Origin: Cercospora beticola
Taxonomy: Eukaryota > Ascomycota > Dothideomycetes > Mycosphaerellales > Mycosphaerellaceae
Length of the DNA: 64,000 nucleotides
Direction: 5' to 3'
NCBI RefSeq assembly: GCF_033473495.1
Contig: NC_088936.1
Coordinates: 558,001 to 622,000, forward strand
Shown: positions 35,605 to 62,506 of the stretch, in pieces
Layout: every line of letters starts with the position of its first letter
How positions within the stretch are numbered: position 1 is the stretch's first letter
Notes under the pieces: model-generated
What the model was told of the DNA's origin: nothing
What the model saw: the letters and a program-made list of their open reading frames with translations, nothing else
Databases searched by the model: none
Position numbers and translations under genes: made by a program

Positions 35605-35819
35605 TCTGTAGAGAGAATCATGATACCCCTGAATTAACGGAATGGAATGCTTGATACTTCATGATTCTACGATCGCCGACTGCAGTGCTGTCGGTCTCGT
35701 GCTGCGAGCGAACTGGATCATATCCCGGCGCTTACCCAAATGAAAGCTGCACTCAGTAAAGGGGCCATACAATAGATCACAGGAACGCAATAGTCCCAAA
35801 GATGCGCGTCGATGGGCAA

Positions 35820-35967
35820 AACAATCGCCCTCGACACACTGTTTGCAACAGCGTGCAACACATCTCATGCTTTGCAACCATGGTAGACGAAGAAGACTGT
35901 TGCTTGGCTCAGCATCGACCCGCACCGACGACTCACGAGTCGTACCGCTAGACCAAGGACGATCGTT
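35820..35967 (-). repeat. Structured repeat, reverse copy R2
   Basis: On the minus strand the 5' arm AACGATCGTCC (35967-35957) pairs with the 3' arm GGGCGATTGTT (35830-35820) using G-U pairs. An inner hairpin, arms ACGACTC and GAGTCGT, lies at 35943-35928. TTGGTCTAGCGGTA after the 5' arm fits a Pol III A-box, and GGGTCGATGCT about 45 nt later is B-box-like. Confidence 0.6.
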
Positions 35968-36092
35968 GAATGTTGCGGCTACAAGCCAGTATACATTGGT
36001 CGTATCGATCTGGCAGTCTCAAAAAACGAATAATAGGCAACGACGGTCTTGAACGGCAAAGGGTTTGCTTGGAGAATGAGTACTGGGGGCAA

Positions 36093-36242
36093 AACAATCG
36101 TCCTTCGCCTTCCGGCAACACTGACGCATGCACACCAGATCGACTTCTTGGTCTCAAAGTCGGCGTACGCGTACTGGACTTTGCTCTCAGCACCAGGTAT
36201 ACCAGCGACTTACGGAGTCTACCACTCACTAAGGACGACGTT
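36093..36242 (-). repeat. Structured repeat, reverse copy R1
   Basis: Minus-strand 5' arm at 36242-36229 (AACGTCGTCCTTAG) and 3' arm at 36106-36093 (GAAGGACGATTGTT) pair over TCGTCCTT/AAGGACGA. Inner AAGTCGC followed by the self-complementary GGTATACC. TTTTGCCCCC follows the 3' arm as in other copies. Confidence 0.58.
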
Positions 36243-36368
36243 GGAAATTGGTGGTAGTAGCAAATATATGAGAGTTGAGATGGTCGGCAGACTTGAGAGA
36301 AAAGGATAACAAAAATTATAGGCTAGGCGATAAAAGGTGTTGCGTGGAATTAAAAAGGGAAAGAGCAA

Positions 36369-36517
36369 AACAATCATCCGTGGCTTCGTGTGCACCGGGA
36401 TTTCGACTTCCGTCGGGACTGTTCGCTTGATCCTGTGGGAGCGACGTCTTGAGCAATCGACTCAGCGCCAAATTCTAGGCGATTTGTGAGCTTACCACTG
36501 GGCCATGTATGATGGTT
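36369..36517 (-). repeat. Structured repeat, reverse copy R3
   Basis: Minus-strand 5' arm at 36517-36503 (AACCATCATACATGG) and 3' arm at 36383-36369 (CCACGGATGATTGTT). Compared with R1 the arm core is ATCAT/ATGAT in place of TCGTC/GACGA, a paired change. Length 149 nt. Confidence 0.55.
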
Positions 36518-48378: not shown

Positions 48379-49741
48379 ATTGGACTGCTCGGTCAGCCTC
48401 TACCTGTTCGCAAGTGAGAAGTGCTTCAGCAGCCGGTGCGGAGAGCAGTATGTTCCCTCTCAAATCGTGACTGCTCGCACATGTGCTACGCGACAGACAA
48501 GTAAACAATCTAGGCGTGTTTCAGCGATGCGCTGTCTTCTTCCTGTTGACCTACGGCACCCGAGCAGGCAAGCGAGGCAATGAGGTGCATAGATAAGGCA
48601 GACGGCCAGCAGGCCAGCCTTTGCATAGCATGCGAGGATATCAATACGCGAAGCCTCGAACCAGTTCGAACTGCACGAAAGAATGCTCCGAGGCGCCTGG
48701 TCAGTCCAGTCAACACTGAGCTGCTGCAGGTCCAGCGAACAGGAACAGAGCCTGCTGCAGCTGTTGTCCTGCTGCCCGAGTCCATTGGATGAGCGGTGCA
48801 GCTGTCGCGAACCCCTCCTCCACAAACACAACAGCTCACCAAAGAGGAATGGCGCCAATTTCTGCTGACTAAGATTACGCGCGGGTCAAAAGGTCTTCCC
48901 GGAGTCTGGACATGCTCTCCTCTTCTCCGACATGAACAAAGTGAGCGATATCACAGCATCGCCACCAGCGCACTCTCGACGACTGCTAAGTTGCGTCAAA
49001 GTCAGTAGACGTTCCAGCGCTCTACATACCACATCGGGCAGGTGAACTGTCGAGCATTGGCACTGATGAGATGCTACATGGCGACTCCAGCGACCACTAT
49101 GGGTGATGCAAACATGATACAAGAAATATCATAGTAAGCGTCCGATCATCATACTTCGAGCTCTAGCCGGAACTCTTCAGGCACCGCCTACTACTGACAA
49201 CCAGGTCACTTGGCGGACGCTTGTTGTAGCTGCATGATCACGTCGGCTTGCCGAGATTTGCTGTATGCAGGTCCGACTCAACTCTACAGAACAGATACGC
49301 CTCACGACCAAAATACATACAGACAACCTCTCCTGGCAACCTTATACTGGTGCGCCTTTCTCACTTGAGCAGACAACCACAACGGCGACGGACCCTATTA
49401 TCTACAACGTGTATCCGAGGGTCATGGCTAAAACGGAGGCCTGTCCGACACTGACTCAGCTCCTGCACTTCCCCATGCCGATCACTGTGCTTCGACTCAA
49501 GCACCAAAGCAGAATCGCCGACTCGAACTGTGCCGGATCTGCGATGATGTCCAAACTAGACCATCACTGCTGCAAAAGCAGTGCCCAAAAGCGCAACCGC
49601 CCACTGAGATGACCCGGGAGGATCATGAAGCACTACGGCTCATATACAGCCACCCGTTCCCTCTAGTACTGCGTCCTGTCGGAGATTTTGCTTCCCACGT
49701 TTGCTCTATTGCTCGGTGGTACGCTTGTGCGACACACCAAC
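48379..49741. other. Intergenic, nothing recognised
   Basis: Left side is the promoter of the 47.2-48.4 kb gene, right side that of the CFEM receptor. Open frames of 60-130 codons show no motif. No repeat was recognised. Confidence 0.45.
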
Positions 49742-51489
49742 ATGCGGGCTATCTTCGCCTTTCTCGCCTGCCTGGTCTACCCAAGTCTGTTCTCTTCAGT
49801 CGCTGCCAGCGAATACAGTCTGAAACCTCGCCACGATGTCAATCTCACAGCCGCCGCTGCGCTTCCGCAATGCGCTTTGGAATGTGGCAGTAGAATCTCC
49901 ATGGCGTTCAATTGCCCGATCACAGAGCCGTGCTTCTGCGAAACGAGCGGACCTAAGATCGATGCCACGGTAGCATGCCTCAAGGAATCGTGCGATATCC
50001 GAGGTTCTTTAGCCTCGCAAAGATTTCAAGCAGAGACATGCGGGTTCCCATACCGCGACAAGTCGTGGAGGATTGCATTGGTCTCTTACATCCTCTACGG
50101 CATCGCAATGGTGTTCGTGATTGCGAGATTCATCTCCCGCTTTCCGAGACTTTTAGGAGCTGGCTTTGGTGCCGATGACTGGACAGTTGGGGTATGTGTG
50201 GCGCCTATGACAGGCATGACTGTTGTGGCCTACTACGAATACTATTACGGTTCTGGTCGAGATGTTTGGACTGTCCCCGTTGACAATCTAGAACCTTTTG
50301 CGCTGGTGAGTCTTTTCCGCCTGTTCATCCAGAAACAAATCTGACTTCGAAAAGTGGTTCTTCGTTGGCCAGCCGCTATACGTAACGGTCACCTACCTCT
50401 CGAAACTGTCACTCGTGTTTCTATACCTTCGGATCTGGCGCGAGGAATCTATGAGCTCGTTCCGAATCACTTGCTGGATTGTGGCAACTAGCCTTATCAT
50501 GTGTACCATTGGATGTGTCCTCGCATGCATATTTCCTTGTCAGCCAATCAGCTATGCATGGCGACAGGTCTTACCAGGAGTTACTGGAAAATGCTCGAAT
50601 CGCACAGCTGCCGCCTTCGCATTCTCGGGTATCAATATTGCGTACGATGTGATAGTCCTGCTCATCCCTATCCCACGCTTCATCGGGCTCAGCATTCCAT
50701 TGCATAAGAAGATCGGGTAAGTCCTACCTCTAACCCTCAGTCTAGCCTTTCGTAACTACTGACAAATTTCGCTACAGCGTCTGCTCCTGCTTCCTTGTTG
50801 GATTTGCTGTAACAGCTTGCTCAATTATCCGTCTTACACACCTCTTCGCCCTCACCGACTCCCGAAACCCAACATGGGATTTCGCCGAGCCTGGCTTCTG
50901 GTCTCTCATCGAAGTCTACACCTGCATGATCTGCTGCTGCACCCCAGCAATGGCCGGTTTCCTCCACCGTCTCTACAAATACGGTTTCGAAGGCCGCTGG
51001 GAAAGCTTCAAGAGCTCCATGCTCTCCTCTCGCCGCTCCGACTCACAACTCATGTGGCACCCCGAAACTCACGGCAACGATCCTCAACGAAACTGTCAAG
51101 GAGACGACGTCCTCGTCGACGAACGCGGACACGTCGTTCTCGATGAAAACGGACGCGTTATCCGCCGAAGTCGCATCGGCCGTCAAACTCACCAATATTC
51201 TTCTAGCGGACGCATTCCCGACGATATGCTGCACGTCGAGAAAGCTCTGCCGAAGAGCAGTCCAGAGAAAGCTCGCTTCGCGAGTCTTGATGGCACGAGC
51301 TCGATGGATGAATATGAGAAGATTGATGATCGGGAACGGCCGTTGGAGGGAATTGCGAGAATTCCGAGTGATGCGAATATGATGGAGACGGTGTTGCAGC
51401 ATCCTGGTGCTGGGCAGCCGATTGTGAGAATGAGTAGTGAAGAGGAAGAACAGGTGCTGTTTGAGGCGAGGAAGAGTCAGATGCCGTAG
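49742..51489 (+). CDS. CFEM-domain seven-helix receptor (Pth11-like)
   Basis: Three exons: 49742-50305, 50355-50716 and 50778-51489, introns 50306-50354 (GTGAGT...GAAAAG) and 50717-50777 (GTAAGT...TACAG). Product 545 aa. Signal peptide MRAIFAFLACLVYPSLFSSVAAS, then a CFEM domain at about 35-105 with Cys in the family pattern (LPQCALECG, FNCPITEPCFC, VACLKESCDI, ETC). Seven membrane segments follow, from IALVSYILYGIAMVFVIARF to the last one around WSLIEVYTCMICCC, with the Pth11-type WFFVGQPLYVTVTYLSKLSLVFLYLRI after helix 2-3. The C-terminal tail of about 180 residues is long, Ser/Arg/Glu-rich and cytosolic. Pth11-like receptors sense surface or host cues; ligand unknown. Start chosen at the signal peptide, an upstream ATG at 49688 only extends it. 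Confidence 0.87.
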
Positions 51490-51741: not shown

Positions 51742-51895
51742 AACGAACGCCTTGGCTTCTTTGGTCTATACCATAGGTCGTCCGTCGATGGCGGACGCTT
51801 GTAGATTTCGTGAGTCTGCTACGTGTGCGGCCGAGGCGTCGTGATGTACTCGCCACAGTGGTAGCAGTTGCCGGAAAGAGCTTCAGGCCATTGTT
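51742..51895 (+). repeat. Structured repeat unit 0
   Basis: 5' arm AACGAACGCCTTGGCTTC and 3' arm ending CAGGCCATTGTT at 51884-51895. Shared TTTGGTCTAT box and TAGGTCG. Inner hairpin GTCCG/CGGAC at 51780-51796. The most diverged unit of array 1. Confidence 0.5.
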
Positions 51896-52253
51896 TTGCC
51901 CTTCTATATCCAGTTCTATTACATCCTGTTTCTTCTTGTCTTTTCTTGTTCGTTATACTGCGAGGAGACTCCTAGAACCATTTGCCAATTGTTTTGGCGA
52001 ACGAGCAGATACCGTGTGGTTTCTTTTTTGGACTACATATCTGAGTCAGCTGTAAGCATTTTGTTGAACAGTTGTCACTTCCAAGAAGTTCCGCGCTCAC
52101 TTGCCACTGACTATACCTTGAGTTACCGCAGGTAGATAATGTTCCATCGCTGCTGACTTTCGATCTTGTTGCTCGCTCCAAGACAGCCCTGGGATCCTTC
52201 AGTCGATCTGGGCCTAAGCAGGTACTATATATGGTCAAGCAAGGCCGCTAATC

Positions 52254-52400
52254 AACGATCGCCCAGGCACATTGGTTTAAGTAATAAGTCTTCAGTCTGA
52301 CTGCCGCTGCTTTCATGATCGAGCGATCTGGCTACCACAGGCTCCAATCGGCCTGAATTTGGCTGCTTCCCGGGACGATCGTTGTGCCTGGGCGATTGTT
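52254..52400 (+). repeat. Structured repeat unit 1 (reference unit)
   Basis: 5' arm AACGATCGCCCAGGCAC (52254-52270) pairs along 17 bp with GTGCCTGGGCGATTGTT (52384-52400), one G-U pair and no mismatch. Inner hairpin CAGT/ACTG at 52293-52303. TTTTGCCCC follows and a run of seven T at 52419-52425. Core length 147 nt. Confidence 0.72.
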
Positions 52401-52514
52401 TTGCCCCTTGCACTATTATTTTTTTGCCACTCACTCGCATGATTTTGGCAAGATGCTTCAGCTGGCCCGAAGCCCGGTCGGCATACATATACAACTGAAC
52501 CACATAATCACACG

Positions 52515-52663
52515 AACGATCGCCCAGGCACTTCGGTCTATGCAATAAGTCGCCAGGGTAACTGTCGCTTGCTTGCATCGTTGGACAGGATGGGTTGGCA
52601 CAGGTTGCAATGGGCCTTTGGTGGCGCCATGCTTGAGGACTCCGTTGTGGCTGGGCGATTGTT
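52515..52663 (+). repeat. Structured repeat unit 2
   Basis: 5' arm 52515-52531, 3' arm 52647-52663 (GTGGCTGGGCGATTGTT), 17 bp with one mismatch and a G-U. ATACATATACAACTGA lies about 40-25 bp upstream. Inner CAG/CTG hairpin (CAGGGTAACTG). Eight T at 52677-52684. Confidence 0.72.
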
Positions 52664-52776
52664 TTGCCCCATTCACTTTTTTTTGGCCGGCACTCGCTCG
52701 TATCATTTTTGCGAGATGCATAGACTGACTTTGGCTATGTCAGCATACATACACAGCTTAACCACACCGTCAAACG

Positions 52777-52928
52777 AACGATCGCTCAGGCACATTGGTC
52801 TATGCAACAAGTCGTCTGCATGGCTGTCGCTTGCAGCGTTTGCTCACGATATTAAGAGGCAGAGGTCACAGTGGGCTCACTGTGAGCCTCTTTGAATGCA
52901 GCGCTCCCATCGTGGCTGGACAATTGTT
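52777..52928 (+). repeat. Structured repeat unit 3
   Basis: 5' arm AACGATCGCTCAGGCAC (52777-52793), 3' arm GTGGCTGGACAATTGTT (52912-52928). Outer pairs hold but two inner positions are C/A mismatches, so this copy may be decaying. TTGGTCTATGCAACAAGTCG box present. Confidence 0.6.
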
Positions 52929-53042
52929 TTGCGCCTTTCACTCGTCTTTTGCCATTATTTCTAGTACTAGTTCTGCAAACGGGATAAGCTCTGTGCTTTC
53001 TCTTGCCAGTAAAGATATACAACTGAGCTGCAGCGCAAAATG

Positions 53043-53189
53043 AACGATCGTCCAGGCACATTGGTCTATGCGATAAGTCGGCAGCTTCGCTGTCGCTTGC
53101 ATACCATCCGATGCATCGCAACGTCCAAAGTCAACGACAGGCTTCGGAGCGTCGCTGCGTCCATTTGTCACCATGGCTGGACGATTGTT
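53043..53189 (+). repeat. Structured repeat unit 4
   Basis: 5' arm AACGATCGTCCAGGCAC (53043-53059) and 3' arm ending GGCTGGACGATTGTT (53189). Compared with unit 1, C to T in the 5' arm is matched by G to A in the 3' arm. Inner hairpin CAGC/GCTG at 53082-53092. Confidence 0.7.
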
Positions 53190-53306
53190 TTGCTGCTTTC
53201 GTTCTTCCCTTTGCTCTTTTGACTCTTGTCATCCCCAGGAGACAGATTGGTCGTAGTCCAGGATCTCCAACCACCCAATATTAAGCATTGAATCTTGCAT
53301 CAGTAC

Positions 53307-53460
53307 GACCGATCATTCAGGCACTTTGGTCTATGCAATAGGTCGTCGTCAAATGGCCGATGCTTGCAGATGAAGTTGATCAAGTTCTTGCACAAGGCGA
53401 ACTGTTTCGCCTGTGATGATAAGATCCTGAGGACTCGTCAATGTGTCTGAGTTGATTGTT
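53307..53460 (+). repeat. Structured repeat unit 5
   Basis: 5' arm GACCGATCATTCAGGCAC (53307-53324), 3' arm GTGTCTGAGTTGATTGTT (53443-53460). GATCG of unit 1 has become GATCA and CGATT in the 3' arm has become TGATT. One-nt bulge. TTGGTCTATGCAATAGGTCG conserved. Confidence 0.65.
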
Positions 53461-53580
53461 TTGCTTCATCTTTCTCACTTTTGATAGATTTTGGTACATG
53501 CGAAAGCGACAGATCGAACACACTTTGTGTCTCTCCTAGTCTCGGTGATACAATATCTATGGCAGTAACGTGCTTCTTCT

Positions 53581-53732
53581 AACGATCGTCTCAGGCACTT
53601 TGGTCTATGCAATAAGTCGTTCGCCATCAGTAGACGCTTGCACGCAATTCTGTGTAGGCTTCGGGACAAGGCGGAATCTTCGCCTTCCCGGCTAATTTGA
53701 CGGGGTCACTCCAAATGTGTGAGAAGACTGTT
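53581..53732 (+). repeat. Structured repeat unit 6
   Basis: 5' arm AACGATCGTCTCAGGCAC (53581-53598), 3' arm AATGTGTGAGAAGACTGTT ending 53732. TCTCA/TGAGA pairs, adjoining positions imperfect. Conserved TTGGTCTATGCAATAAGTCG and GACGCTTGCA. Confidence 0.6.
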
Positions 53733-53739
53733 TTGTCTT

Positions 53740-54089
53740 ATGAGCTCTTTATTTTGCATTTTACATTGTTTCCGTTCACATGTATGTGCGTTTCCAATCG
53801 ATGTGCAACATTGTGACGAAGTTACTAACTCATACACTACACCTCCGCTTGTCAGTGACGCTTCTCGGGCGAAACCTCAAGCACCTTGACCATTGTGATA
53901 GATCATCGACATTTCTTGGAAGCCGACACTTATGACCTTGTTCAGTCTCCAAGGGCTCGGTTGTCGCTTGCCAATATTCCGAGCGTTCCATTCCTCCTGA
54001 TCCCTGACAGTCCTGACACTGTCCATCCGTGTGGATCCATCGAGTGCGAACCACCCTCGAACTCCGAAGCCCTTCATCAAGGCAAAGCG
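53740..54089. other. End of array 1 and 3' flank of secreted-protein gene
   Basis: Unique sequence after unit 6. The frame reading through here is an extension of the shadow of the gene on the opposite strand. Nothing else recognised. Confidence 0.4.
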
Positions 54090-54939
54090 TCATTGATCAG
54101 GATAATACCTCGCAGAAATAATATGCAAGACCTGTCCCACAGCCGCGGTCACACAAGACTGCACAGCAGCCCCAGGTCTGAGACTAAACTCACTAGACCA
54201 CAAAATCGCTTCTGGTCCGGAATTCCCAATCCTCTTACCGCCGATCTGAAACCAGCTGTCTTTAGGGGCAACAAGGTAGTCGTCTGTAGCGGGAGGATCG
54301 GGACCGCCTCGCACATTCGTATTCAGTTCCATCGACCCTGCCCTCTGGCCATTGTTATTAAAGCCCGCAGCACATTGTGTGACAGGTTCCCTCTTCTTCG
54401 CAGCACTGATCACCCACTCCCGTACCTGATTTCTTTTGACACAAAAGATGTCTGTGGCTTCGTCGCCAAACTGATTGAATCCGCTACGCTCGATGCATTT
54501 GGAGTCTGGAGGACAGTTGCCATCGATTTCTTGTGTGCGCGCTTGGTCGTTGCTTGCGGCGCAAATCACGGTGTAGGCTGTGTCGGAGCCGCTCTGACCC
54601 ACACGGTGGCAGAAGGCTGTGCGGGCTTTTCGTTAGTCGAGTGTGCATCGCTACGATGCTGATCGGATGGTATATAACAGGGGTGAAAGGGGGTTCTCCC
54701 ATGCCTGAGTCTAATCTCCAGGTTGCGTCCCGGAGTCGATTCGTTATGCCACGGCACACATTGATGCTGTAGATGCCAGCGGCCTTGCGCTTTCGCAGAC
54801 TGTCGTGTATTGTGGCGTCCGTTCCATTACTTGGGTCAATCCCTTGATCATCTGCGACAACGAGGTCGGCGGGAAGGGCAATTGCCTGAGCTGAGAACAG
54901 GAGAGCAAAACTAGCGAGAAAAAATATGAGCGACTTCAT
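54090..54939 (-). CDS. Secreted Cys-containing protein between the repeat arrays
   Basis: ATG 54939 opens a signal peptide, MKSLIFFLASFALLFSAQA, then ALPADLVVADD and a dibasic LRKRK segment, and AGIYSINVC. The second exon (from about 54627 to 54090) encodes HRVGQSGSDTAYTVICAASND, NCPPDSKCIERSGF, DEATDIFC and further, ending SARYYPDQ; it contains eight or so Cys. The intron is placed roughly between 54760 and 54627 with a CTAAC branch and a GCACAG or AAAAG acceptor, but the donor (GTGGCA or another) is uncertain. Roughly 230 aa. No family recognised; a candidate secreted effector or killer-like protein by general features only. It lies between two repeat arrays, on the strand opposite to their 5'-3' direction. 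Confidence 0.55.
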
Positions 54940-55807
54940 TTTGCTGCACGCTGTAGTGCTGGTATCTGACCTGCTTCTTCCAAGTGCAGTGTTCGCCCAA
55001 GTACTTATACTCCACCGTGTATCAAAACAGCATCGCGAGTCCTATCCGTCACGTCGCAAGCAATACGATGTCAGCGAGGGAGTAGGAAAAATATTGAAGT
55101 CTGTTTCTCGTAAGTCTTACTCTTGCAAAGCACGGCACATCGTCGTTCCGGACTTGTGTATGTAGTCGAAGCAGTTGTGCACGTACAGTCCGTACCGACC
55201 CGAGGAGTGTGCTTAGCGGAACTTCGCATGACAATCATCGCATTCTGTACGACACATCCCATATCTGATTCTGAAACTTTATACATCAGCTGTGTATACG
55301 GATGCCCATCTATTCATACCGTCCTTTGCCTCCTAACCTTTGCATCGAAGATGAGATGAGTACGACGGCTCAACGATTATTTTGCCTCCTCCAGTCGAAC
55401 ATGCGTCACATTGCGAGAGTATCTTTTGCGAATGGGTACTCATCTGTGCGGCGCGGTGTCTCTTGGCAGCGCAGCGCTTACGTTCGATGGAGAAAGCCCT
55501 GGATATTTGAGTTCGGCGCTAAATACGTACATACTAGATACGGAAGTAGCTCTTCCCGATTACCTTAGAGGGAAGCAGGAATCTAGTGTAAACACATTGG
55601 GCACTCCTGCGATCTTACACATATTCTCTCGAACGAGCTTACTGCCAATAGCTTCCTTAGCTCGCAAGGCTAACACAATGCAAACCAGGCCGTGCAGTCA
55701 GAAATGCACGTTATACGGTCCATATCTCGATGAGACTTCCGTCTCCGTATCTTCGGCTTCCCTCCTGACCGTGAAAATACATATACAGCCTCCAAAGCGC
55801 AGCTTTC
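54940..55807. other. Intergenic, promoter and decayed repeat material
   Basis: Contains one isolated 3'-arm-like block (GGCTCAACGATTATTTTGCC at 55368-55387) without a matching 5' arm, probably a decayed unit. A plus frame at 55411-55821 is open but has no motif. Confidence 0.45.
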
Positions 55808-55959
55808 AACGATCGCTTTAGGTTCAAAGCAGTAAGTCGCTTGTCGCTAAGCGAGTGCGTGCTTTACAAGTGATACCAATGCTCTTAAGCACATTGTAGT
55901 TCCTAACGGGCGTACGAAATTGGCTTGTTCATCCCGCTGACGAGCCTGAGACGATTATT
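55808..55959 (+). repeat. Structured repeat unit 7
   Basis: 5' arm AACGATCGCTTTAGG (55808-55822), 3' arm CCTGAGACGATTATT (55945-55959). Inner hairpin TCGCTT/AAGCGA at 55837-55854, a six-bp perfect stem. TTTTGCCC follows. ATACATATACAGCC lies about 25 bp upstream. Confidence 0.65.
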
Positions 55960-56073
55960 TTTGCCCGCCATTTGTCACTTCTTTCGCTCTTCTTCAAGTC
56001 CTTAGATGTGCTCCTTATCTTTTCTTAGGTCATGCCCCTGAAGATACACATACGATCACTCTGACAACACCGT

Positions 56074-56242
56074 AACGACTAGCCCGGCCTCTTTAGCTCA
56101 AGCAATAATTCGCCAGCATCAAATCCAAATGGCTAGCGTTTGCAGACATATCGACGATATGGCTCCGGCCCCTGCGACATGAATTCTGAGGTCGCTGCGC
56201 CGGCGTGCGACGTCGTTGCCTACTGAGGCTGGGAAGTTTGTT
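56074..56242 (+). repeat. Structured repeat unit 8
   Basis: 5' arm AACGACTAGCCCGGCCTC (56074-56091), 3' arm GAGGCTGGGAAGTTTGTT (56225-56242). GCCTC/GAGGC replaces GGCAC/GTGCC of unit 1, a two-sided change. TTTAGCTCAAGCAATAATTCG box. 169 nt, the longest copy. Confidence 0.65.
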
Positions 56243-56361
56243 TTGCTCCTTAAGATAGCCTTTTGCACTCCCAGAATCTTTACCTCTCTGCCCCTTTTGT
56301 ATGCCCGAAGCATCGTCCATAGTGCCAGCTCTTATGTACGAATGTTCATTGAAACCCCTTC

Positions 56362-56519
56362 AACGATCGTCTCAGCCTCCTTAGCTCAAGCAATAAATCG
56401 TCAGCCTAATGGCCAACGTTTGCAAGTTCAATGGCACGCTCAACAGTCCTATAGAACAACACTTGATGTTGCGGGCTCTGATTGACTCGCTGTGGGTCAA
56501 CGAGACCGAGGCGATTGTT
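56362..56519 (+). repeat. Structured repeat unit 9
   Basis: 5' arm AACGATCGTCTCAGCCTC (56362-56379), 3' arm GAGACCGAGGCGATTGTT (56502-56519) with G-U pairs and two mismatches. TTAGCTCAAGCAATAAATCG box and inner GCC/GGC hairpin at 56404-56413. TTTTTGCCCCC follows. Confidence 0.65.
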
Positions 56520-56663
56520 TTTGCCCCCTTCCACTACCTTTCTGCATCCTCCTCTGACATCTTTGCTCCTTCCACGCCTCCACCCATGCATTCTTCTTTT
56601 TGCTTTTCATCAGCCACGATTGACCGCATCAGCTCTCATACACAGTCCTAATCTTCGCCTCTC

Positions 56664-56829
56664 AACAACCGTCTCAGCCTCTTTGGCTTAATCAGTAAGT
56701 CGCCAGGCTGCGAACTGGGCAAATAGCGCTTGAGAATACTAGATTGTCACACTTGCATTTTCCATGCGACTTCTGTCGCGGTAATGCAGGTACTCAGGAT
56801 TCACAGCTATCGAGTTTGGAACGATTGGT
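56664..56829 (+). repeat. Structured repeat unit 10
   Basis: 5' arm AACAACCGTCTCAGCCTC (56664-56681), 3' arm region TTTGGAACGATTGGTT (56814-56829), partial pairing only. Inner CCAG/CTGG hairpin after AAGTCG. Conserved GGTTTTTGCCC end. Confidence 0.55.
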
Positions 56830-56972
56830 TTTTGCCCTTCCTCATTCTCATTTACCTTTGTTTCTTCTTTCCAACCTTTCTTGCCCTCGATCGCCGTTCA
56901 CGCGGTTCTTTTCTTTCTCAGAGCCGGTGAAAAGCACCATCCTTCATACACACCATGACAACCCCCTCTTCC

Positions 56973-57129
56973 AACGATCATCCCAGCCTCCTTAGCTCAA
57001 GCAATAAGTCGCCAATCGCAGAACCTTGCACTGAGCGCTTGCGACCAATACCAGACATGGGATTCTCAAAACGCAAGCTCTTGTGTTGAGAGTATGCATC
57101 TCCGAGCTGACAATGCTGGGATGGTTGTT
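56973..57129 (+). repeat. Structured repeat unit 11
   Basis: 5' arm AACGATCATCCCAGCCTC (56973-56990), 3' arm GCTGGGATGGTTGTT (57115-57129). CATCCCAGC/GCTGGGATG is a nine-bp perfect stem whose sequence differs from that of units 1 and 9. TTAGCTCAAGCAATAAGTCG box. Confidence 0.68.
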
Positions 57130-57149
57130 CTACTTTTGCCTCACCAGAT

Positions 57150-57531: not shown

Positions 57532-60500
57532 CTACACCTCCCGTCCCGCCATCTCCTCCTCGAACTCCTCCGGGACCCTATCCTCAACGACAGACGCACT
57601 CCTCTCCATCTCTCCCTCCAGTCGGCTTCCATTGTTTGCTCTTTCTCTCTCCAACATTGCTTTTAACTCCTCGTTCTCCAATCTTCCCTCTTCCAGTCTC
57701 TTTCTTGCCCCTTGGCGGTCCAGCAGCCTCGCCTCGCGCTCAGCCTTCAGTCTCCTTTCCAACTCCTTCAACCGATGAACCCATCTAGTCTCATTCGGAG
57801 CAGGAGCGGCTGGTGGCGGAACGATGATCTGCTGACGCGTAGGTGAAGGCTGTTGATTCTCCTCGCTGTGTCGTGACATGTACGACAACTGTTCAACAGC
57901 CGAGGTGGAGTTGTGACGAAGGAGATGGGAAAGTGCTTGTCGAGCAGGACTTTTACCGACGCCGCTGATACTACCAGCGCTGGAGGCGGTACGAGAGTGG
58001 AGCGGCTCGCCGGAGAGGGCTTGATTGTGTGCATTAAGCATTTGCTGCGCCATGGCGCTTGGGTGTTGCCGGTGGAATTTCAGCTCCGTCTTAAGGAGCT
58101 TCAGCTCCGATTTGAGTCTGCTGATTTCCTCACTGCTCTTTGCAGAGTAGGACTTGCCTCGTTGCGGCATCTCTGGACGGGAGGCGGCTTCTTGCGCTGC
58201 AATACGCTGCTGTTCCTCGAACTGTTGTTGAGCCTCAATCACAGCTCTTTCGAGGTGGTCCATACGGCGAGCCCGCAGCTCCAAGTTGTGTTCGAGAGTC
58301 TGGTAGTCTTTCCACAGATCTTTCTCGATTGTCCTGATGCGCTGTTTGAAGCCACCAATGACCGCTTCAATGGTCTTGACGGCACTAATGACGTTCTTGT
58401 TGAACGCTGGGAGATTTTTGTGAATAGACTCGACAGATGGCACCTCGCCATTGACCAGGCTGTGACGCTGAGCGAAGTCCGCGCCGCACAATGTGGACAG
58501 CCGGTTCCACAGAGCCAGGAGAAGGTTATTTCGTTCGTGCATCTGCTCGCGATACTTCTGTTCAAGCGCAGACATCTTCCGCTTATCTTGGTTGTAGAGC
58601 GTCTCAAGCTCCAGCATCTTGGACTCCTGCTGCGCGATAGTACGCATGTGTGTTGCCTGTCCGCGCGAAGACTTCTCGAACGACTCCAAGTCATGCTTGC
58701 GCTGGTTGCGTTCCTTCTCAAGCAGGTCTGACAGTCTTCTAGACTCCAGACTGGTGCTTTCAAGTAGACCGTCACGGTGACGAAGAAGTCTATCCTTGTC
58801 CGAGAGATCCATCTTCGCCTTGTCCAGCGTGTTGATTGTCGTCTCCAGCTCGCGTTGCAGCTTTTCGATGTCGCCCAGCAGGCTCTGACGCGTGCCTTCT
58901 GGGTCGCCAAGAAGGCTGCGCAGACTCTGCTCCAGCTGCTCGAGCTTGGACTTCTCGCTACTGAACTCAACCTCCTTCGCCGAAAGCGCTCTTCTGAGCC
59001 TTCGAATCTCGTCTTTGGCTCTCGTGTTCTCGGCATTGAGGTCATCGAGCACCTTCTGAACCTCTTCCTTAGATTTGTTCTCGAGGGTGTCGCGTTGTCG
59101 GCGTTCCTCCTCCATGCTTTCAGTCAGTTCGCGCAGTTTCTCCTGCTCGTCTTGGATGGTTGCATGTGCCGCATTGAGTGAACCTTCCAACTCGCCAATC
59201 TTGATCTTGTCACCCTCTTGCTCTTCTCTGAGGAATGTGATCTCCGAGTGCAGACTTTCCTCGGTAATCTCGAGCTTGCGGTTCTTTTGATCGAGCTCAT
59301 TGCACTTTTGCTCCCATTTCGTGATTTCTTCTTCCGCCTCCGCGATCTGTTGCTCGAGGGTCTCGATCGTGCGCATGTTATGCGTCTTGACATCGTCCAG
59401 GTCGATGACTCGCGCTGTGATGTCGCGCAACTCGGCCTGTAAGCCCTGGTACCCCTCTGTCGTGGTCTGTAGCTTCGACTGTGTCTTCTCGAGCTTGTTA
59501 TATGTGTCTTCCAGGTTCTTCTCTAACTTCTCTCGCTCCTGGTCGAGCGCATTGATCTCTTCCAGAGCTTCCTCCTTAAGATTTGCGAGTTCCTGCTCTT
59601 TGTCTTCACCAAAGGCAAGTAACTCATCTCGCTCCTGCTGTAGATTCTTGATATCTTGCTGCTGTTCTTCGAGCTCCGTTTCCATCTGCTGATAGTCGCT
59701 CTCCAGCACTTGGATGTAATTCAGATATTGGTTATACTTGCGGTCGAGCTCTTGATATTTTAGTCTCTGTTCCGCGTTGGCGTCCCGCAGTTCGCCTTCC
59801 TTTTTGTGCCAATCGTCTCGTTCGGCTTCGGTCACTGCTGTGTGATCGCTCTGCCGCGACTGCGCTCTCTGGTGGGCGCGAGAAATGGATCGCTCGAATA
59901 TGCTTTCACCTGCCACTGATCTCCCGTCGCCCTTCCGTTGCAAAAGCTTCAAGCTTTCGATTTCCTCTTGCAATCGCTCACGTTCGCGATTACGAGATGT
60001 TAACATGCTTGTCTGTGCTCCAAGGCTGCGGCGTAGTTCGTCATTCTCATGCTTGAGTTGCTCGATGAGATCGTTCTGTCCGCTCTCAACACCATTTACC
60101 ATGTCTTCTTCGGCGGCTGACTCTGCCTCGTCAGCTGGTGGGGCACGACTGCGGCGCCGAGGAGTCTTGAGGTTGCGATCCACCATGCGACTAGCCGAAG
60201 GAGAGGCTTTCTCCATTTGTAGCTTTGTGAGCTCGGCCCTCAAAGCACTGAGCTCATCCTCAGCTTGCTCACGGCGACCAGTCTCCGCATTGAGTAGGTC
60301 CTGCCACATGTCTTCCATTTCTTTCATGCCATTCGCATCTTGACCACGTTTGCCGGCCATTCCGCGCATGTGCTCTGCCATCTTGCGCTTCTCAAGCTCT
60401 TTGTCCATGATTTCCTCTCGCAGCGTGGTGACTTGCTCTTCCAGGCGATCATTTTGCTGGTGCAGATACAAGATCTCCTCGTGCATTTGCGCTTGCAGAG

Positions 60501-61320
60501 TCGGATTGTCATCCTCATCATCTCGTACCGTGCTTTTGCGCTGTGATTGTGCTTCTGCCAGAGCTTCCTCCTGCTGTTTCATGCGCATTTCCATGTCACG
60601 CATCTTCTTGCGCATGCTCGCATTTTCCTTGCGCTCACTTGCAAGATCTGTCTGCAGCTGCACATTGGTCTCGACGAGTTCTCGAATGCCATCCTCGCTG
60701 CGGTTCTGTAACGCCTGGTCTAGGAAATGGATTTTGAGTTTCAGATCAAAGTTCTCCTTGGTGAGAGCATCGATCTTAGCGTTCTGCTCCTTCAGCGTGA
60801 GCGTTCTACGTGGTCGCGCATTCAGACGGGCTTCGCCATAGCCTCCAGAAGATGCAGGTCGTCGATCGGGGGATAAGTCGCGTGTTTTGAGGCGGAAGTC
60901 GCGTGCTACGGTCTCGGGAACCTGTATTGATTTGACTCTGCGGATGACGGCTGTGTCGAGAGCATTGTCGAGGTCTTCTTCATACTCGCGGTATCGTTTC
61001 TGCTCCGGCGACAACGCGCGAGGGGTGCGAGGATCGTTGGCTGCGGCCAATTCTTCGGGCAGCATGGTGTTGTTGGTGGATGCAGTGTGCACCGTCGACA
61101 TGGACGGCATGCGGTCCATCAGCGACAGGCGCGAGAGGGAGCTGCGATCCAGGTCGGAGGGGGTGTTACTGCCCCCATTGATATGGATTTGCGCATTCGG
61201 GGCCGCATTGTGGGCGGCGGCGCGTTGGGCTAGCGGGGAGTCGAGGAAGGTCGACTCGAGGGCGGGCGGGGAGAGGAGTTGGCTGCTTTCGAGCGACGGC
61301 GAGGCGTCTTCGGCGGCCAT
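57532..61320 (-). CDS. ApsB/Mto1-like microtubule-organising coiled-coil protein
   Basis: Single exon, 1262 aa from ATG 61320 (MAAEDASPSLESS). ApsB of Aspergillus and Mto1 of fission yeast recruit gamma-tubulin complexes to non-spindle-pole MTOCs, such as septal ones. The centrosomin motif 1 (Cnn_1N) is plain: LTLKEQNAKIDALTKENFDL followed by KLKIHFLDQAL (about residue 175-210). Nearly all the middle is heptad coiled coil (Glu/Lys/Gln/Leu-rich). Near the end, NETRWVHRLKELERRLKAER resembles the Mto2-binding segment. The N-terminal 120 residues are Ser/Pro-rich. An in-frame ATG 45 bp upstream (61365) would add 15 residues. An orthologue of a known family, expected in one copy. Confidence 0.88.
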   Translation of the reverse strand: MAAEDASPSLESSQLLSPPALESTFLDSPLAQRAAAHNAAPNAQIHINGGSNTPSDLDRSSLSRLSLMDRMPSMSTVHTASTNNTMLPEELAAANDPRTPRALSPEQKRYREYEEDLDNALDTAVIRRVKSIQVPETVARDFRLKTRDLSPDRRPASSGGYGEARLNARPRRTLTLKEQNAKIDALTKENFDLKLKIHFLDQALQNRSEDGIRELVETNVQLQTDLASERKENASMRKKMRDMEMRMKQQEEALAEAQSQRKSTVRDDEDDNPTLQAQMHEEILYLHQQNDRLEEQVTTLREEIMDKELEKRKMAEHMRGMAGKRGQDANGMKEMEDMWQDLLNAETGRREQAEDELSALRAELTKLQMEKASPSASRMVDRNLKTPRRRSRAPPADEAESAAEEDMVNGVESGQNDLIEQLKHENDELRRSLGAQTSMLTSRNRERERLQEEIESLKLLQRKGDGRSVAGESIFERSISRAHQRAQSRQSDHTAVTEAERDDWHKKEGELRDANAEQRLKYQELDRKYNQYLNYIQVLESDYQQMETELEEQQQDIKNLQQERDELLAFGEDKEQELANLKEEALEEINALDQEREKLEKNLEDTYNKLEKTQSKLQTTTEGYQGLQAELRDITARVIDLDDVKTHNMRTIETLEQQIAEAEEEITKWEQKCNELDQKNRKLEITEESLHSEITFLREEQEGDKIKIGELEGSLNAAHATIQDEQEKLRELTESMEEERRQRDTLENKSKEEVQKVLDDLNAENTRAKDEIRRLRRALSAKEVEFSSEKSKLEQLEQSLRSLLGDPEGTRQSLLGDIEKLQRELETTINTLDKAKMDLSDKDRLLRHRDGLLESTSLESRRLSDLLEKERNQRKHDLESFEKSSRGQATHMRTIAQQESKMLELETLYNQDKRKMSALEQKYREQMHERNNLLLALWNRLSTLCGADFAQRHSLVNGEVPSVESIHKNLPAFNKNVISAVKTIEAVIGGFKQRIRTIEKDLWKDYQTLEHNLELRARRMDHLERAVIEAQQQFEEQQRIAAQEAASRPEMPQRGKSYSAKSSEEISRLKSELKLLKTELKFHRQHPSAMAQQMLNAHNQALSGEPLHSRTASSAGSISGVGKSPARQALSHLLRHNSTSAVEQLSYMSRHSEENQQPSPTRQQIIVPPPAAPAPNETRWVHRLKELERRLKAEREARLLDRQGARKRLEEGRLENEELKAMLERERANNGSRLEGEMERSASVVEDRVPEEFEEEMAGREV

Positions 61321-62506
61321 GATGAAGTGGAATCCGATATTTCCCAGCGCATCGCCGGCGGGCAATTGCAGTTGCGTAGCGGGCGGAGGCAGCGGGCGAC
61401 TCTGCGTGGTCTTCTACACCAGCGAGAGAGCGCGCTTTCCAAACGACGTCGCGTGCACCTGCAGGAGCTCGTTAGCGCCATGCACCTGCACCCGTTGGCC
61501 TGCCTTACCATCGTGTCTGCCGTAACTTTATCTGGGGTTGTTCTGTCGATCTTGCGGGCAATAGCAGTGTGTCGTCTTCTTCTGGCTCGATATTGTATAC
61601 CGTCCTGTAGTGCGGTGTGCGAGACGAAGCCATCAGGACACGGACGCGACAAGCTTGACGAAGGCCCCCATGTCATCCTGCGTAAAGTCGCGGAATTGTT
61701 GGCAGCACCACTCCCGACTTCACCTCCCTGCACCCGCATGTCGCATTGGGCTACGAGACTAAGGGGAGGCGAGTCTACATCCTGTACGCACAACTCAATG
61801 CAGAAACCAGCTCCTGAATTTTGAAGAGTAGGCTAGTTACTGTCTGCTATGGAACAGTTATTCCCGTTTCAAGAAACATTGGGAGGCGTGCATGAACAGG
61901 AAACGGCATGCACGCACATACCACCATCGCTTCAATCGTCCATACCATTCTTTCGTCAGACATGCAGGCTCCACGTGATAAAGGACAGCAGTCGCCAATT
62001 TGGAGTACTTCAGGCATGTTCAAAAATAGAAGCTTTTGTGATCAACCCTAAACATGCTGGTAATGGAGCGAATGGATCGAAGTCGAAGCCTCGATCAGAC
62101 AACACCGCTCGCTTGCCTCTCTTTCAAATGTTGGTGAATCAATACTTCCTATTTGTCCGATCACCTTAGGCGGAGGCATATCCTCCGTCTGTCTAGAGAA
62201 CTGCGGCATTGCCGTGCTCTGAGAGGCAGCAAACGCACAGCCATCGCATTTCGCCTCGAGGCCCAATCGTTGTTCTTCTGCAGATGTCGCGCAGAACCAC
62301 TGTCGCGCTCGATAGTGTACAGTACATGTACACAGCACTTCCTCATGAAGGTGTGCCCTCCTCTGTCGCAAGACTGACGTTCGCCAACACATCTAGGTCG
62401 TTTTCTCGACTTGTCTTTCTCTTAATACAGAGACTTCAGATCGTTGCGCGTGTGCACGTCGTTTCAGTGCCACCATCTTGGATATCACTTCCCAATTCTC
62501 CATCAA
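61321..62506. other. Intergenic, nothing recognised
   Basis: Promoter of the ApsB-like gene and 3' flank of bL31m. Open plus frame at 61279-61824 is mostly antisense to the coiled-coil gene and its leader. No other structure. Confidence 0.45.

Follow-up and report, generated by a model that had tools for sequence, protein, structure and literature searches.

A tandem family of candidate RNA polymerase III genes for a predicted three-way-junction RNA in Cercospora beticola

Adenovirus virus-associated (VA) RNA I is about 160 nt long, and the VA RNAs are viral products of one or two genes that carry A and B boxes; the vault RNAs, including nc886, are small RNAs made by RNA polymerase III (Pol III) that have a terminal stem, a U-tail and, close to the 5' end, an A box, and the Y RNAs are likewise Pol III RNAs with a terminal stem and a U-tail. 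Among fungi, the microRNA-like RNA (milRNA) gene milR-1 of Neurospora is read by Pol III; its promoter has TATA-like elements and no predicted A or B box (PMC3547838). Here we describe repeated units in a stretch of 64,000 nt of the Cercospora beticola genome (contig NC_088936.1, positions 558,001 to 622,000 of the forward strand; hereafter the window), each predicted to encode an RNA in which a terminal stem (P1), a short stem-loop (P2) and an irregular hairpin in the middle (P3) meet. The overall explanation that we consider probable is that they belong to a large family of RNAs of about 156 nt transcribed by Pol III, with at least 112 members in this genome.

An earlier note on this DNA, made by a model from the letters alone, had described twelve related plus-strand units in two arrays with a common order of blocks, and on reading the sequence we find them at those places and in that order. 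A covariance model (R2, E<=1) lists 15 units in the window, the 12 of the plus strand together with three minus-strand ones between 35.8 and 36.5 kb (35818-35967, 36091-36242 and 36367-36517), which is also the number of cores that the note had counted with the reverse copies. Contiguous plus-strand units start 261-309 bp apart, about the 260-305 bp proposed, with wider steps of 512 bp from U1 to U2 and of 2,227 bp from U7 to U8; the arms of P1 are indeed reverse complementary, the best pair being 18 nt long and 94% complementary rather than 17 bp at most. U8 has a defective box from which 7 nt are missing, U11 an altered 3' arm, and in U12 the T-run is displaced a few bases downstream. Two covariance models were used: R1, built from 10 of the 12 plus-strand window units (U8 and U11 left out), and R2, built on the 72 units of a MAFFT alignment (A4). 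This alignment took 72 of 83 units, leaving out U1, U6, U8, U11 and seven weak R1 matches (10.6-21.4 bits), and is biased to well-formed units; two flaws were kept in it, a P2 3' strand that seems shifted in the rows from C5:4.57 Mb and a P1 that lies one column off in some rows. Another alignment, containing one antisense row, was set aside. Nine of the 15 window units (eight plus-strand ones and 35818-35967, the latter within locus L039) belong to the training set, and six (U1, U6, U8, U11, 36091-36242 and 36367-36517) stand outside it. The units, together with two upstream elements, are as follows:

51742..51897, plus strand: U1, predicted three-way-junction RNA gene; R2 43.5 bits, E 1.5e-9; outside training set A4
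52254..52402, plus strand: U2; R2 67.3 bits; P1 arms 52254-52271 / 52383-52400, 94% complementary
52483..52492, plus strand: TATA-like element ATACATATAC of U3 (-32 to -23), read in the sequence; positional enrichment
52515..52665, plus strand: U3; R2 73.1 bits
52777..52930, plus strand: U4; R2 62.3 bits
53043..53191, plus strand: U5; R2 79.4 bits; P1 arms 53043-53058 / 53174-53189
53307..53462, plus strand: U6, array unit number 6 (not the U6 small nuclear RNA); R2 53 bits; outside training set A4
53581..53734, plus strand: U7; R2 73.2 bits
55777..55786, plus strand: TATA-like element ATACATATAC of U8 (-31 to -22), read in the sequence
55808..55962, plus strand: U8, box 7 nt shorter; R2 42.6 bits; outside training set A4
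56074..56244, plus strand: U9; R2 62.2 bits
56362..56523, plus strand: U10; R2 82.1 bits
56664..56834, plus strand: U11; R2 56 bits; outside training set A4
56973..57131, plus strand: U12; R2 65.4 bits
35818..35967, minus strand: reverse-strand unit with TTGGTCTAGCGGTA, which from its consensus we take to be a tRNA-type A box; R2 78.2 bits; in A4 as part of L039
36091..36242, minus strand: reverse-strand unit; R2 52 bits, E 1.1e-11; outside the training set
36367..36517, minus strand: reverse-strand unit; R2 43.5 bits, E 1.4e-9; outside the training set

By eye, remnants resembling decayed units can also be recognised at 51975-51998 (between U1 and U2), 53868-53985 (right after U7) and 55370-55390 (before U8), none of which is among the R2 matches at E<=1.

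The RNA of about 156 nt is predicted to form a three-way junction. P1 has 15 pairs in the model and ends at the U-tail, and P2, as judged by eye in A4, begins with an outer helix of 4 bp that changes between clusters, continues through a 3-nt bulge (mostly GUA or AUA), an AG/CU step and a bulged U, and closes with an inner part made of a CG/YG step and 3-4 more pairs. Within P2, 55 of 109 units carry GTAAGT and 27 carry ATAAGT; GTAAGT is the usual 5' splice-site word, its presence here being probably a matter of chance inside a conserved stem. Over the 72 aligned units, 83.5% of the P1 and P2 cells are paired, against 73.0 ± 0.6% after shuffling and 28-48% when the strands are slid by 1-3 columns; cells changed on both sides number 211 (87.5 ± 9.5 shuffled), and the covariation score reaches 0.373 (0.209 ± 0.008 shuffled). 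Under a tree-aware null applied to a separate alignment of 83 units, four pairs exceeded every value obtained in 60 simulations, and all four are helix pairs. The same kind of test on 111 units (108 of the 109 genomic R2 units and three places found by pattern), in which substitutions were re-thrown on the tree in 200 simulations, ranked five helix pairs at the top of 5,253 column pairs, with E values of 0.010, 0.035, 0.050, 0.215 and 0.585. In addition, G-U cells outnumber A-C cells in P1 and P2 by 295 to 92, and by 215 to 74 when the first eight columns are removed, a bias which indicates that the sense RNA is constrained, beyond the DNA alone. The proposal of structured RNA genes of an unrecognised family, put forward in the earlier note, is thus borne out by the covariation of P1 and P2 and by the lack of any Rfam match on the units, and it has come through the covariation check in a larger alignment; that the units are real structured RNA genes we regard as almost certain.

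P3 is a predicted irregular hairpin of about 75 nt, fixed in its centre and free in its sequence. What had been called a variable middle is variable in its sequence, which diverges as fast as the spacers: the excess of identity over shuffles in 80 neighbouring unit pairs is 0.031 in the middle and 0.027 and 0.029 in the flanks, as compared with 0.063 in the 36 nt upstream, 0.180 in the 5' block and 0.130 in the 3' block. The middle is not formless, however, since in most units it folds as this one centred hairpin. In the 106 of 109 units on which the axis counts are based, the hairpin axis lies about -2 to +3 nt from the midpoint, with peaks at 0 and +2, and the pairs reach a half-span of about 33 nt. 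There are 16.0 pairs on the central axis per unit versus 5.9 in dinucleotide shuffles, and at least eight of them in 85 units versus 31 in the shuffles; spacers of equal length give 4.5 central pairs, 19-20% of them reaching eight. The sense strand of P3 pairs better than the antisense strand (Wilcoxon p=0.0006 for central pairs), the sense-antisense energy difference being -1.76 against -0.92 ± 0.33 in shuffled middles.

Neither covariance model includes anything upstream of the first base. A TATA-like word occurs there at -33..-19 in 76 of 108 units, compared with 11 and 8 of 108 in two control windows, and the best match to TTCATATA begins at -31, -30 or -29 in 51 of 82. Downstream of the first base, 65 of 83 units score 11 or 12 of the 12 letters of an A box (mean 10.78 versus 9.66 in shuffles), with the best match beginning at +21 in 41 units and at +13 in 20. 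At the other end, directly behind the 3' arm, 106 of 109 units carry a run of four T (sought from -8 to +14 around the modelled end); such runs are scarce inside the middle (8 units versus 20.2 ± 3.7 shuffled), where runs of four A are not (17 versus 13.6 ± 3.1), as well as in the whole units (11 versus 26.4 ± 4.0 in dinucleotide shuffles). The U6 gene of the same genome, for which one Rfam match was found, has a matching layout: relative to the first base of that match, TATATT stands at -29 and an A-box-like block at +20, and a T-run closes the gene. On the strength of these sequence signals we are highly confident that the units would be Pol III genes. Both the Pol III-type signals and the centred middle hairpin go beyond the earlier note.

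The genome searched comprises 36.07 Mb in 10 contigs. R1 already revealed members in many further loci, and R2 identified 109 distinct units at E<1e-3 in 17 clusters, one of these being a lone unit. Three further places, found through a 5' pattern, read over about 240 nt each and standing outside the training set, match R2 over its whole length (E 4.5e-16 to 4.5e-21 in a search of 733 bases), which brings the family to at least 112 units; they occupy 20 places and are spread over 8 of the 10 contigs. The true number may be higher, the genome having been searched by patterns and DNA with a few pattern matches left unread. The count of 109 leaves aside matches truncated at locus ends (parts of units already counted), matches antisense to a sense unit (E 0.0018-0.04), one that covers only an inner part (E 0.049) and four probable units with weaker scores (E 0.0021-0.033). 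Neighbouring units within clusters keep the same strand in 92 of 92 steps; 72 of these steps measure 340 bp or less, with a median of 282.5 bp, and eight measure 503-588 bp; at roughly two periods, these look like places where a member has decayed or escaped detection. Gaps of 530-588 bp inside the arrays at C2:1411821-1413437, C5:4566005-4569180 and C7:2209700-2213469 suggest missing or weak members in the same way; a weak R2 match (L044:1360-1510, E 0.0064) lies in the first of them. Pattern counts place the family beyond chance, although they separate it from controls to different extents: the 3' pattern CGATTGTTTTGC (12 bases) has 34 matches in the genome versus 3 for its reversed control, and gapped patterns gave 38 versus 0, 8 versus 0 and 33 versus 5 with controls of the reversed type, while less specific patterns separated weakly (11 versus 5 and 21 versus 14). 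As a check on false positives, 30 loci drawn mostly from chance pattern matches yielded five R2 matches confined to three loci (L046, L047 and L059; E 9e-17 to 7e-7), two of the five being in training. One specific family pattern had no match in the viral contigs and none in the contigs of bacterial and archaeal genomes. A BLAST search of the genome with one unit retrieved only that unit and its neighbour, and another with 1.5 kb of array retrieved only itself; sequence searches hardly detect the family because little of its sequence has survived divergence, unlike P1, P2 and the P3 hairpin, which are retained.

It is tempting to speculate on what such an RNA would do. Transcription would run from AAC to the U-tail, the RNA would accumulate stably through La-type protection of that tail and would fold into the three-way junction, in which P2 may serve as the docking site of a specific protein and P3 as a generic double-stranded rod read by its shape, its own sequence being immaterial. 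A protein that binds double-stranded RNA could then find in the RNA a scaffold or a decoy, as with adenovirus VA RNA, and the many tandem genes would provide dose. Several observations weigh against one or another part of this picture. The role as shape-read scaffold or decoy is drawn by analogy and we put it forward only tentatively, as somewhat doubtful, and transcription of the units is itself something that we infer from their sequence. The B box was found neither inside the units nor downstream of them. Besides runs of four T, whole units are also low in runs of four A (22 versus 37.9), four G (12 versus 25.2) and four C (8 versus 14.4), and therefore only the T-run deficit restricted to the middle is strand-specific. 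In the helices, no more than three pairs reach E<=0.05 in the 200 tree-aware simulations, and the pairs with any double change among the 72 units (17) are not in excess over shuffles (16.5). As for P3, fewer than eight central pairs are present in 4 of the 15 window middles, those of 36091-36242 (7.0), 36367-36517 (1.4), U8 (5.9) and U10 (0.2); the hairpin is barely stabler than shuffles (mean z -0.90, with 20% below -2, in 83 units); and a comparison of close paralogues (12 ordered pairs) failed to demonstrate compensatory change in P3, 3 of 8 double changes still being paired (slid control 0.36), along with 16 of 37 single changes.

The main rival explanation takes the units as small-RNA precursors, that is, Pol III hairpin genes from whose P3 (or P1) Dicer would release a milRNA specific to each unit, the shared part being the housing; free evolution of P3 would in that case generate a repertoire of different small RNAs. 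P3 is indeed private to each unit and, at its length, fits the yardstick of a precursor hairpin. Moreover, Neurospora milR-1 offers the precedent of a Pol III gene with TATA-like elements (PMC3547838), and the terminal stems of adenovirus VA RNAs are Dicer substrates (PMC4140831). The modest stability of P3 reported above may speak against such precursors, and neither the exact matches of the middles to the rest of the window nor their mutual antisense matches are longer than in shuffles; we consider this explanation unlikely. A related idea, to which we would also give only a small chance, is that more than 100 Pol III genes form a constant housing (promoter, P1, P2 and terminator) which presents a private, freely evolving hairpin in most copies. 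If true, the fungus would hold a diversifying library of short double-stranded RNAs on one standard frame, a milRNA-like, defence or effector RNA repertoire; we know of no RNA gene family that presents a diversifying hairpin library in this manner. With a housing that is constant and a hairpin that is free, one can ask directly whether shape or sequence is what is read in the RNA.

Three other explanations compete with the Pol III-transcribed structured RNA family that we favour, and each of them seems very improbable. In the first, the units would be guide RNAs whose variable part pairs with many different targets in the manner of small nucleolar RNAs (snoRNAs). In favour of this, every copy combines the same constant frame with a variable part of its own, but most of that variable part is occupied by its own hairpin, ACA is present in the last 9 nt of 0 of 109 units and the C/D signature in 0 of 109, which discards both H/ACA and C/D snoRNAs, and Rfam places no snoRNA on a unit, its SNORD50 match lying outside them.

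In the second, the terminal arms would be inverted repeats of a transposable element, similar to a short interspersed element (SINE) or a miniature inverted-repeat transposable element (MITE), that mimic an RNA stem. The arms, an internal A-box-like block and the spread of units over 8 of the 10 contigs could be accommodated by such an element. On the other hand, target-site duplications of 2, 3, 4, 5 or 8 bases are in no excess over shuffled partners; no run of five A follows within 20 nt downstream in 109 of 109 units, as a tRNA-derived SINE would lead one to look for; 108 of 109 units sit in same-strand clusters of two or more; and compensatory changes and a bias of G-U over A-C are not predicted for a terminal repeat acting as DNA.

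In the third, only the DNA would count: the units would be arrays of TFIIIC/TFIIIB binding sites that set chromatin boundaries, and any transcription would be incidental. Boundary activity is a property that arrays of Pol III promoters can have, and the TATA-like and A-box-like blocks are enriched at fixed positions; against this explanation, P1 and P2 covary as RNA with a G-U bias, and the axis of the P3 hairpin is kept. Finally, a splicing-related RNA such as a spliced-leader RNA, which the GTAAGT of P2 in 55 of 109 units and the tandem genes could bring to mind, is scarcely credible, given that 27 of 109 carry ATAAGT, which lacks GU, that the preceding sequence varies between copies as a leader exon would not, and that Rfam has no match on the units.

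Three protein-coding genes flank or separate the two arrays. A plus-strand gene at 49688-51489, apparently split by introns, encodes a fungal rhodopsin-type domain (PF20684) and ends just before the first array; of its pieces, one passes the curated cut-off for this domain, another falls short of it and the last has no match. In the gap between the arrays, a minus-strand gene for a small protein (54090-54939), apparently of two exons, has by eye a start like that of a signal peptide, and neither piece has a Pfam match. Past the second array, a minus-strand gene at 57532-61365 encodes an ApsB/Mto1-type microtubule-organising protein with Cnn_1N and Mto2_bdg domains, 99% identical to a protein of Cercospora kikuchii.

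Known RNA classes were searched for as well. Rfam returned no match in the window at curated cut-offs; with E up to 5 in the array region there was no match on the units and one chance match outside them (SNORD50, 54401-54459, 19 bits against a cut-off of 42), and with E up to 1 there was none in 12 other loci. Transfer RNA (tRNA) genes can be discarded, ARAGORN with the bacterial code giving 0 in the window and 0 in 48 loci, and the 30 tRNA matches in the Rfam listing of the genome all lying away from the units. Nor are the units protein-coding repeats, the longest sense frame from ATG to stop having a median of 9 codons and a maximum of 35. Vault RNAs were rejected with no Rfam vault match on the units and no B box found, a genome search for the major vault protein (MVP), run without a positive control, yielding 0 matches. 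Y RNAs were rejected likewise, with no Rfam Y RNA match on the units and no TROVE/Ro60 match in the genome at E<=0.01 in a search whose control was positive in 1 of 14 prokaryote genomes. A literature search over titles and the openings of abstracts, with most subscription journals and all bioRxiv preprints beyond its scope, gave no description of the family among the papers listed. So large a family of Pol III-type RNAs, with units that Rfam does not match and in a fungus close to crop-pathogenic Cercospora, deserves attention in its own right; if transcribed, it would constitute a large unrecognised class of structured RNA in a fungus.

The closest described systems resemble the units in different respects. 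With the U6 gene they have only the promoter layout in common, the RNA being a different one. Gao et al. (2021) described 17 conserved fungal RNAs, some of which are intergenic, structured and of similar length; the main text of that paper does not contain the words 'polymerase III', 'tandem' or 'copies' (PMC8216456). The Neurospora milRNA genes, milR-1 and others, are fungal hairpin RNA genes read by Pol III, as the units probably are, although a tandem family with a shared three-way junction is not described in what is available of that work (PMC3547838). Vault RNA and nc886 share with the units the probable Pol III type, the 5' A box, the terminal stem and the predicted U-tail, and Y RNAs all of these but the A box. 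In comparison with VA RNA, the units amount to at least 112 nuclear genes with a TATA-like element and an A-box-like block, the B box not having been found. The likeness to VA RNA I, a Pol III RNA, is one of form and not of homology, as Rfam has no match on the units, and it lies in the predicted arrangement of a terminal stem, a short central stem-loop and a longer apical stem-loop around a three-way junction.

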